From the NCBI GenBank assembly GCA_002070115.1, contig MWCO01000049.1:1-46969 (forward strand): a stretch of 46,969 bases of DNA, read 5' to 3'. This document shows positions 35,388-40,078 of this stretch, piece after piece. Below the pieces are notes generated by a model. It had not been told where the DNA came from. It did not search any database and saw only the letters and a list, made by a program, of their open reading frames with translations. The first letter of the stretch is position 1. Each line of letters begins with the position of its first letter. The position numbers and the translations under genes are program-made. Origin of the DNA: Deltaproteobacteria bacterium ADurb.Bin207 (GTDB taxonomy: Bacteria > Myxococcota_A > Polyangia > Polyangiales > Polyangiaceae).

Positions 35388-37409
35388 ATGGATCCAAAAT
35401 CACTCCTGATCCGAAGCTCTTTTGCCGCGGCGGCGATCACGTTTGCTGCACCAGGTTGGGCAGGTCCCGTCGACCTGCTCGAAGCGGATACCCAGGCTTT
35501 CGTTCAGGACAGCGGCGCCATGGATGTCATCTATTCGCTTCGTTATCAGGACAACGAAGGGCGCTCGGCCATCAAGTCCATTGGACAATTCTATGAACCC
35601 GTCGCTTTTACCCGCGGAATCCTCCATGCTGGAAATAATACAATAGCTGTAACCATGTCTCCCAATGGCGGCGGCTACTACAAAGCGTCTTTCGACTCCG
35701 CCGTTCCGCGCGGCACCTATACGCTTGAACTGCATTATCGAAGTGACAAAAGGTTCGCCGAGCCCACGGTGTCGAACGATGGCAAAAATCTGCTTGCCGT
35801 CTGGTTCAACCCCGTGCGCTGGACGATGCCTATCGAGAAATCTATCGTCAAACTGGTGCTCCCTCTGCCTTTGGAAGGGAATCTACAGCGTCCGGAGGAT
35901 ATCACGCCCGCCATGGTCGACGGGCTCGGGGTGATCACGGACGATCAAAACAAGCGTTTGCAGGATCATTTCGCTTTCGTGTATTCCGATTATCAGGATT
36001 CGCGGCGGCTCACGGTATATACCGAAAAAAAATCGCTCCCGGCGCAAGGGGTCCACATGGTGCGGATCTACATCCCGCAATCTTCGATGCCGAACCTATC
36101 GAAGACGAGCAATACGCGTCCTGACGCCACCATCCCCGCCATTCCAACGGATACCGGGTCCCCCGCGACGTCAGCCCCGGTCACGCCGCGAGACGTACCC
36201 ATTTCTTTCGGGGACTACGCAGCTCGCGCCATCGTTCTAGCGATACTATCATTTTTTCTCAATCCAATTGCATTGTTTGCCGAGTTCTTGGTTCTGGGCC
36301 TGCCGTTGTGGATCATCGATAAAATCGCTAAAACCACACTACTTCGTAAAATATTTCTGCCTGCTAACGAATTCAAGTTTGCGCATCCCACGAAAGGCAC
36401 GATTTTGGGCTGGACGGCAGTCCTGGTGCCTTTTCGGTTGACGTGGGCGATTATTGCGGGGTTGGGCAGCGGGGTGGTTGCTCTTCTTCGGCTTCATCCG
36501 ATCATTGAATTATACATCAAGAAAAAAGCGCCTGTATATGAATCCCCTGAAATTACGGTATCTACTTTTCGAAAGGACGGCTATGTGCCCACGCTGGCTC
36601 CCGAGGAAGCGGCGGTGGTGATGGACCGTCCTATCAAAGCCATCAATTTGCTCGTTCTCAATCTTCAAGCCCGAGGGGCCATCCAGGTGTTGAGCCGCAA
36701 TCCCTTGCAGGTGCAAGTCGTGGATGCGTCTCGGGCGACGACGGAACCGGAAAAGTGTTTTTTGAAGTCATTGACCGGGCGGGGAACCTTGACCCAGCAA
36801 GGAATGCTTGAGGTCCTCAAGAGCCTGACCGCTTCCGTGCAGCCCAAAATATGGCGTGCGGATACCGCGGCGACGGTCGAGGCTTATCGGCAGCGCGCGC
36901 AACAGCGTTGGGATGAGTTGCGCGCGGCTCCTCCCACCTCTCGCCCGCAGTTTTTCAATACATGGTATGCCGATCTCTACCTTCAAGACACGTTTTTTCA
37001 GGACTTAGGCACGACGTTTGGGGCCATTCCCACCAGCGTTCCTGCTGATCGTCCCCTGACGACCCTTGGGGCTGCTCGGGAACAATCTTCCCTATGGGGT
37101 GGTGTGGAACGGGTCCAGGATTTTGCCGAAGGCGTGGCGGATACCATCGAATCGGGGGCGAAAGCCACCATCGACCGGATCGAGAATCTGTTCAACTTCG
37201 ATGGCGAGGCGGGTGCACGTCCCGGTATCCAAAAAGGTGTGGCGGTTGCGGTCGGTTACGATGCTTGCCACTCTGCTTGCCACTCTGCTTGCCACTCTGC
37301 ATGCCATTCGGCCTGTCATTCCGCTTGCCATAGCGCCTGTCACGATGCTTGCGCCTGTCATTCCGCTTGCCATAGCGCCTGTGTCTCGAGCTGCGCAGGG
37401 AGTTTCTGA
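35388..37409 (+). CDS. DUF2207-like membrane protein with C-terminal Cys/His (ACHS) repeat tail; candidate radical SAM substrate
   Basis: This 673-residue protein begins with a signal peptide (about 1-25, cleavage near WA-GP). A beta-rich extracytoplasmic domain (26-230), a Pro/Thr linker (240-270), hydrophobic segments at about 278-310 and 337-368, and a soluble domain (395-450) with [11 protein letters not shown] and LQARGAIQV follow, as in DUF2207-type membrane proteins. A helical region runs to about 605. The tail (626-669) consists of six ACHS units, ACHD, AC, two more ACHS and ACVSSC. It holds 12 cysteines and 9 histidines; the rest of the protein has one cysteine (C457). The next gene, a radical SAM/SPASM enzyme, overlaps by one base. 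I infer that the tail is its substrate and faces the cytoplasm when modified. The product is unknown; a metal-binding tail is the main alternative. Confidence 0.8.
   Translation: [673 protein letters not shown]
37263..37394 (+). repeat. 12-base coding repeats for the ACHS tail, including a 30-bp direct duplication
   Basis: Units of 12 bases encode Ala-Cys-His-Ser. The first three are identical; later ones differ at synonymous sites (Ser as TCT, TCG, TCC and AGC; His as CAC and CAT; Cys as TGC and TGT). Bases 37311-37340 are repeated exactly at 37353-37382, which adds the second block after an out-of-register AC. Confidence 0.95.
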
Positions 37410-38839: not shown

Positions 38840-40078
38840 ATGGGTAACCTTCGTGAATTCGACCAATTCATCCAAAACCGCTTGCAGGTCGTTCAAAATA
38901 TCAAGTCGCAATTGCTTGCCTTACAAGCGCATTACGAGACGTTTTTCCAAGAAGTCAGCCAGGTTCGGGAACACGAACTCGCCCAACTCGTTGTCGAGTT
39001 CAATCGTCGCCGAGGCTCCCTTCCCTTTCGGCTTGATGAGGCCCTCGACAGGGAGCACGAGCGCGCGCAGGCCGAGATGGACAAGCAGTTGAAAAACCTT
39101 CAAACGAAACATGCCTCCCTCATGCAGACAGCGGAAAACATACGGCGGAAAAGCCATGAATTGGAAAATGGCGTCCATAAAAAACATGTGGATCTCGACC
39201 AAAAAGAAGAGGAACTGAAGGCGCGTAACGAGAAACTCCTGCAAGGAATCGCTTCCTACAACTCGCGAATCCGTGAATTAGGAAGCGGTTTTGGCTTTCT
39301 TTTCAATATTTTCCAGATGCGAAGCCTCCAGGCGGAACGTCGACGGCTGGACCAAGAGCATGAAGACGTCGCCGCGCGCATCGAATCCATCCGAGCACAA
39401 TGGGTCCAAAGAGAAAAGGAGTTCAACGTCAAACAGGACGAGTTATTGCGTAAATGGCGAGAGACGACGACGAAAGCTTCTACTCTGCAATCCAAGATTG
39501 ACCTGTTGAATGTCACGCGAGCTTCCCTGGTAGAGCGCACCACCCTCGAACGTGTATTGTTTGAGAAGTATCCGTCGCCTCCCCCCCAAGGCAACGACGT
39601 TGTCTGCCCCCGCTGCAAGTCCGGCAATGCGGCGTCGAATCGTTTTTGTCATATCTGCGCACAGCGTTTGCAGCCCGATCGGCCGGACCTGGAGGGTAGC
39701 ATTCCGGAACTGGCGGAACTCAATCACCACCACCGGCGTTTTTCCGAAGGAATGAAAGCGTGCCAAGAAATCATTGGCTTGCTGACGGGCCTGGAGTCTG
39801 GATTGAAAGCGTTCTCAAAAAGCATCGCCAATATGATAAAAACGGAAACCACCTACCCCGTCGGTAAACTATCCATCGACGTTCCCGCCCAGTGTGTACA
39901 ATTTGCTAATAGTTTCGAGCAGTTAGGAAAATCTTGTCAGGACAAAACTTCCCATCCCACCGAGTTTGCAAAGCTGGTGAAAAGCGCTGCGCAGACATAT
40001 AGTGAAGAAAAATTACAAGCTTTTTTCGAAAGAATGGGCAAGGAACTATCCGTACAAGCCAAATCCCAATGGGGATGA
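38840..40078 (+). CDS. Coiled-coil protein with central zinc ribbon
   Basis: This 412-residue soluble protein is mostly long charged helices (residues ~1-240), with strong coiled-coil character except for a short hydrophobic break at SGFGFLFNIFQM (149-160). A zinc ribbon follows, with C256, C259, C270 and C273 (CPRC...FCHIC). The C-terminal ~120 residues are again helical. No signal or true membrane span is visible. It starts 3 bases after the radical SAM stop and has its own GGGG-rich ribosome-binding site, so it belongs to the same operon. I do not recognise the family; an adaptor or scaffold role in the modification system is a guess. Confidence 0.75.
   Translation: MGNLREFDQFIQNRLQVVQNIKSQLLALQAHYETFFQEVSQVREHELAQLVVEFNRRRGSLPFRLDEALDREHERAQAEMDKQLKNLQTKHASLMQTAENIRRKSHELENGVHKKHVDLDQKEEELKARNEKLLQGIASYNSRIRELGSGFGFLFNIFQMRSLQAERRRLDQEHEDVAARIESIRAQWVQREKEFNVKQDELLRKWRETTTKASTLQSKIDLLNVTRASLVERTTLERVLFEKYPSPPPQGNDVVCPRCKSGNAASNRFCHICAQRLQPDRPDLEGSIPELAELNHHHRRFSEGMKACQEIIGLLTGLESGLKAFSKSIANMIKTETTYPVGKLSIDVPAQCVQFANSFEQLGKSCQDKTSHPTEFAKLVKSAAQTYSEEKLQAFFERMGKELSVQAKSQWG

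Follow-up and report, generated by a model that had tools for sequence, protein, structure and literature searches.

A candidate radical SAM/SPASM maturase encoded with a membrane protein carrying a Cys/His-repeat tail in Myxococcota

The window analysed here, a stretch of 46,969 nucleotides, is part of one contig of a 6.5 Mb Myxococcota MAG genome. Its forward strand carries three consecutive genes, referred to below as A, B and C, with the following features:

35388..37409, + strand: gene A (673 aa), with signal peptide, DUF2207-like beta domain, hydrophobic segments, winged-helix-like domain and Cys/His tail
35469..36077, + strand: beta-rich N-terminal domain of A, residues 28-230 (AlphaFold model), predicted extracytoplasmic
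36207..36506, + strand: hydrophobic/transmembrane region of A, about residues 274-373 (hydrophobicity and AlphaFold model)
36567..36845, + strand: winged-helix-like, predicted cytosolic region of A (AlphaFold model; sub-threshold TIGR04222 match, residues 400-485)
37257..37406, + strand: Cys/His tail of A, residues 624-673, with CHxA repeats (sequence pattern); probable substrate segment
37409..38836, + strand: gene B (475 aa), RRE-radical SAM-SPASM maturase, overlapping A by 1 base (TGATG)
37472..37696, + strand: RRE/PqqD-like domain of B, residues 22-96 (Pfam and model: three strands, then three helices)
38840..40078, + strand: gene C (412 aa), coiled coil and zinc ribbon, 3 bases past the stop of B

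This layout bears out the one proposed in a first-pass annotation of the same DNA, namely a 673-residue membrane protein with 12 of its 13 cysteines in a 50-residue terminal repeat tail, a coiled-coil zinc-ribbon gene starting 3 bases past B and, from the coordinates, Pfam matches and model, a one-base overlap between A and an enzyme of RRE-radical SAM-SPASM make-up. Further downstream, positions 41425-46354 hold Rieske-like, cytochrome b-like membrane protein and multihaem cytochrome-like genes, a run that seems to be a separate respiratory cluster.

Judged from sequence relationships, A can be classed as a diverged protein of the DUF2207/TIGR04222 type. The “DUF2207-like” body first ascribed to it stands by relationship, whereas formal family membership does not: A is unmatched by Pfam DUF2207 (PF09972), the region of its relatives homologous to the beta domain is matched weakly (20.1 and 22.5 bits against a gathering cut-off of 24.4), and TIGR04222 reaches 22.9 bits over residues 400-485, below the curated cut-off of 43. 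Like proteins of the DUF2207/YciQ type, A combines an N-terminal beta domain, a transmembrane segment and a predicted cytosolic region, but the phylum's ordinary members match its N-terminal domain only. The AlphaFold model places a signal-like helix at the N-terminus and a disordered linker after the beta domain, with low confidence everywhere except in the beta domain and the winged-helix region. A low TM-score likeness of the model, presumably of the beta domain (35469-36077), to M1 aminopeptidases and ribophorin I/OST1 was seen in the PDB.

Two long hydrophobic stretches (about residues 274-316 and 338-373) are present in the window's A; KKK follows the second, and no later hydrophobic stretch lies between the winged-helix region and the tail. 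In most A proteins of the type found in carrier family f46, the signal peptide is followed by a single transmembrane segment with RKRRK-type charges immediately after it, which under the positive-inside rule would leave their winged-helix region and tail in the cytosol; in another carrier, G212, A apparently has three segments ending in RLRARKK, and these charges would put the tail on the cytosolic side likewise. The tail of A is probably cytosolic, a placement that for the window's protein draws on relatives and positive charges, with an uncertain number of spans. The earlier suggestion that the tail perhaps acts at the envelope thus gives way to a probable position at the cytosolic face and not outside, where on that inner face a SAM-dependent iron-sulfur enzyme could work on it. 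The proposal of an anchored product fares better, given the signal peptide, the transmembrane stretch, the position of the tail at the extreme C-terminus and the lack of adjacent protease or exporter genes at the loci inspected.

The clustering of cysteines in the tail has a chance probability of 9e-14 for randomly placed residues, and its regularity extends to the relatives. In 107 C-X1-X2-X3-C units, X1 is His in 104 and X3 is Ala in 103, while X2 varies freely among S, D, H, N and E. Neighbouring repeats of the window tail encode the same residues with differing codons, and tails among relatives differ by 11-30 synonymous codon changes per 39-46 codons, their amino acids remaining almost letter-for-letter equal. 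Over 46 codons the window tail shows 16-30 synonymous differences from its relatives and only 2-5 amino-acid differences; for three members of its own family (L002, L014 and L021), whose A bodies are 52-67% identical to that of the window, the corresponding figures are 26-30 and only 2-3. As the codons vary while the amino acids stay, the tail is genuine protein and not a DNA-repeat artefact. Window-type and f46-type A bodies share ~17% identity (hhalign probability 100, E 1.4e-46), the CHxA unit is nearly letter-identical between them, and no other segment is comparably conserved. In the AlphaFold model the tail is unstructured (pLDDT under 40), and a CHxA pattern in an unstructured segment is what the recognition and modification site of an enzyme would leave. 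Haem binding through CXXCH was considered and rejected: CX3CH and CXCH occur in the tail, CXXCH does not.

Gene B matches Pfam PqqD (24.3 bits, cut-off 23.4) as well as Radical_SAM and SPASM, and Pfam also detects PqqD in 8 of 11 B relatives. Its CX3CX2C motif lies at Cys 130/134/137, and the SPASM cysteines fit CX10-12GX4C and CX2CX5CX3C. The claim that B retains all cluster cysteines holds for the CX3CX2C and SPASM positions, C345, C359, C377, C414, C417, C423 and C427 being invariant among the 11 relatives; it does not extend to the terminal Cys 471, the sole non-conserved one. The model of B, built from 11 sequences and with a mean pLDDT of only 65, finds its best PDB matches by Foldseek in SuiB (5v1s, E 2.6e-11) and SkfB (6efn, E 5.7e-11). 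Among NCBIfam models B reaches no curated equivalog, scoring 66.9 bits against a cut-off of 400 for TIGR04340 (ACGX) and 76.5 against 267.9 for TIGR03977 (His-Xaa-Ser), with StsB and others also far below their cut-offs; B is therefore not a listed maturase. A contig search with B returned a single relative, 73% identical over B, on a contig of Myxococcales bacterium SKS1.bin3, and tblastn against plasmids gave distant PqqE-type matches alone among the best matches listed.

A and B are strictly co-inherited in the sampled phylum. Among 379 genomes spread over Myxococcota, 11 contain relatives of B (E <= 1e-50), and the A body, searched without its tail, is present at full length in exactly these 11 carriers and in 0 of the 368 others (Fisher 2e-21). 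Three further relatives in the window's family carry A-B-C-D. The first-pass annotation had expected B homologues to neighbour a Cys-tailed A: every B genome (14/14) has such an A, at one locus wherever contigs allow, and a B homologue lacking a Cys-tail gene is not among the B genomes found. As a DNA pattern, CHxA matches 11 of the 379 genomes, in frame in nine, all of them B carriers; the matches in G041 and G363 fall in the wrong reading frame and were discarded as noise. In the two B genomes without CHxA (G212 and G187), A ends in an alternative tail, SCACACAGCACACACAGGGR, made of CA repeats. Partial matches to the A body in nine more genomes are weaker and confined to the N-terminal domain; among these, G088 was read and proved to encode a DUF2207-like protein of the ordinary kind, with neither a Cys tail nor an adjacent maturase; G388, of genus g174, has neither A nor B. 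The carriers, a group of soil-type bacteria, are few and all from the one phylum searched in depth, most of them apparently draft or metagenome-derived assemblies. A single family accounts for six of the 11, and a single genus for five of those six; they are not independent, so that independent carrier lineages number about five families.

Tail-only matches in other genomes of the window's family (L006-L012), inspected in every reading frame, were set aside as apparent low-complexity DNA and not tail genes. Scanning viral contigs for the CHxA pattern likewise yielded short, apparently unrelated low-complexity readings; three IMG/VR contigs (L078-L080) share near-identical short repeat-bearing open stretches in a putative frame, probably an unrelated tandem repeat.

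Wherever contigs allow, A and B are adjacent or one or two genes apart, and in 11/11 adjacent pairs checked they overlap by 1 or 4 bases. Neighbourhoods were read for ten new B carriers. The gene immediately preceding B in families f46 and f28 encodes a secreted membrane protein with a Cys-repeat C-terminus, and A-B is followed by gene X, a membrane protein of ~320 residues with no family assignment (L038:6367-7329, L034:3812-4759 and equivalents). The order is A-X-B in G350, where the A tail is split over two contigs, and D-B-B2-A in G212, with an equal layout over two contigs in G187. Gene C is kept within the operon of three relatives and is followed there by gene D, which encodes a transmembrane segment and a zinc ribbon (L002:9675-10217, L014:~11380-11901, L021:4984-5505); the copy of D in the window's genome, 53% identical, lies outside the operon on another contig (G000:C15:1400-1894), and G212 and G187 have shorter D-like genes ahead of B. 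Counting against the pairing, extra A copies followed by X without a B of their own exist (L039:8770-11487, L075:443-3139), though in genomes with a complete A-B-X elsewhere, and one B enzyme may serve two tails in them.

Additional radical SAM-type genes occur at some loci. B2, a second radical-SAM-like protein after B in the CACACA-tail variant (L043:7168-8445, + strand; L042:1-813, - strand), has a SPASM-like Cys-rich end and lacks CX3CX2C (L043), and for this reason resembles a catalytically dead partner of B. In G134 only, a further radical SAM protein of 423 aa with CX3CX2C is encoded downstream of A-B-C-D (L021:5578-6849, + strand).

It is highly likely that the tail of A is the substrate of B, and quite likely that the two form a substrate-maturase pair in which B modifies the tail in place, uncleaved, yielding an anchored RiPP-like product. 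In the mechanism we propose, A would be an inner-membrane protein that exposes its beta domain to the outside and, most likely, keeps its C-terminal tail in the cytosol. B would bind A through the RRE domain and, by means of its SPASM clusters and 5'-deoxyadenosyl radicals, modify the cysteine repeats of the tail unit after unit. No leader would be removed, and the result would be a Cys(/His) polymer, covalently modified and still anchored in the membrane, which the remaining conserved genes (C, D or X) may help to assemble, sense or use. Precedents exist for parts of this scheme: RumMC2 depends on its RRE and can use Ala to accept the thioether (PMC8188230), and PapB introduces iterated thioethers in CX3D repeats (PMC9413430). 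A Cys-to-Ala thioether is a possible but tentative assignment for the modification, and binding of metal by the finished tail through His and the remaining thiols is put forward just as tentatively; the His of the CHxA type would then be kept for this purpose.

Several other readings of the locus have to be weighed. Slippage of tandem repeats, which would make the tail a functionless low-complexity product, could explain why the number of repeats differs by one among the window, L002, L014 and L021, but the same four sequences keep the end block ACxSSCAGxF constant, ACVSGG is the other fixed end motif, and codons are scrambled across families while the amino acids are kept; refuted by this codon pattern, slippage retains virtually no probability. 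More serious, though still unlikely, is a tail that serves unmodified as a metal-binding (Zn, Cu, Ni or Fe-S) or redox segment, with B modifying another part of A or another operon protein. Cys/His repeats are good ligands unaltered, almost every CHxA unit contains both residues, and zinc ribbons are found in genes C and D; co-inheritance, moreover, would be equally expected with C, D, X or a different part of A as the target of B. Yet metal binding does not call for Ala, which shows the same constancy as His (103/107), His is missing from the second, Cys- and Ala-containing tail type, B is of the RRE type that binds peptide substrates, and between the two groups of A no segment other than the tail is comparably conserved.

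The identity of the bond invites a further alternative, somewhat less probable again, in which B makes His-centred cyclophane (C-C) cross-links within His-x-Ala and the cysteines have another role. Triceptides follow a three-residue aromatic-x-acceptor pattern, and the invariant His and Ala flanking a variable X2 form just such a unit; however, the CACACA tail has no aromatic residue at all and is nevertheless paired with a homologous B, and the cysteines would be left with no explained role. A Cys-Ala bond is favoured over the His cyclophane since Cys and Ala are common to both tail types and His is present in one. That an MNIO enzyme modifies the tail, with B a bystander, is very improbable: genes for MNIO enzymes often adjoin TIGR04222 proteins with Cys-rich ends (PMC12452194), but PF05114 is absent from 13 of the 14 carrier genomes, and its sole copy (G187) lies on a contig other than that of A.

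Modification of the tail by B, the reading we prefer, has its closest published counterpart in TIGR04222 (near_uncomplex) membrane proteins, for whose C-terminal Cys-rich tails a periplasmic placement and a role as MNIO substrates have been proposed (PMC12452194). Both cases involve a membrane protein of related build, a Cys-rich tail and a candidate enzyme encoded nearby. The enzyme here is a radical SAM/SPASM protein and not an MNIO, the TIGR04222 score of A is below the cut-off, the tail consists of regularly repeated CHxA or CA units whereas the tails there are Ser/Gly-rich with scattered Cys, and it is predicted to be cytosolic and not periplasmic. With SuiB, SkfB, CteB, RumMC and PapB, B shares the RRE-rSAM-SPASM order, the cluster motifs and a gene adjoining a Cys-bearing substrate candidate, but that candidate is a membrane protein of ~540-670 residues in place of a short leader-core peptide. 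The short, cleaved and exported precursor of sactipeptides and ranthipeptides has no equivalent at these loci, where the candidate is 541-673 aa long with no protease or exporter gene adjacent. The Cys-Xaa-Xaa-Xaa repeat targets (TIGR04117) and the ACGX system (TIGR04340) also combine four-residue Cys repeats with a radical SAM/SPASM enzyme, but their targets are small peptides, and A, its relatives and B all score below the cut-offs; for TIGR04117, A is unlisted at E 1 and its relatives reach at most 12.1 bits against 50.

The open-access papers searched contained no description of a dedicated RRE-SPASM enzyme paired with a regular CHxA/CA tail on a DUF2207-type membrane protein. The related TIGR04222/MNIO idea, however, has been published, and given Cys-rich TIGR04222 tails already linked to MNIO, the system is better regarded as a variant than as wholly unprecedented (PMC12452194). 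We see about an even chance that it represents a new class, in which a dedicated RRE-SPASM enzyme cross-links a CHxA/CA repeat kept on a DUF2207-type protein to give a cytosolic, metal-binding or sensing polymer.

The A-B pairing provides a clean two-gene test system, consisting of a tail and an enzyme with a mass shift as read-out, and the existence of two tail alphabets, CHxA and CA, makes it possible to ask which residue the enzyme really targets. Most of what is known of radical SAM peptide maturases comes from small secreted peptides. If the proposed pairing is true, it would extend RiPP-type chemistry to the tails of structural or sensory proteins, and it bears on the purpose of the Cys-rich ends found in proteins of the DUF2207/TIGR04222 type.
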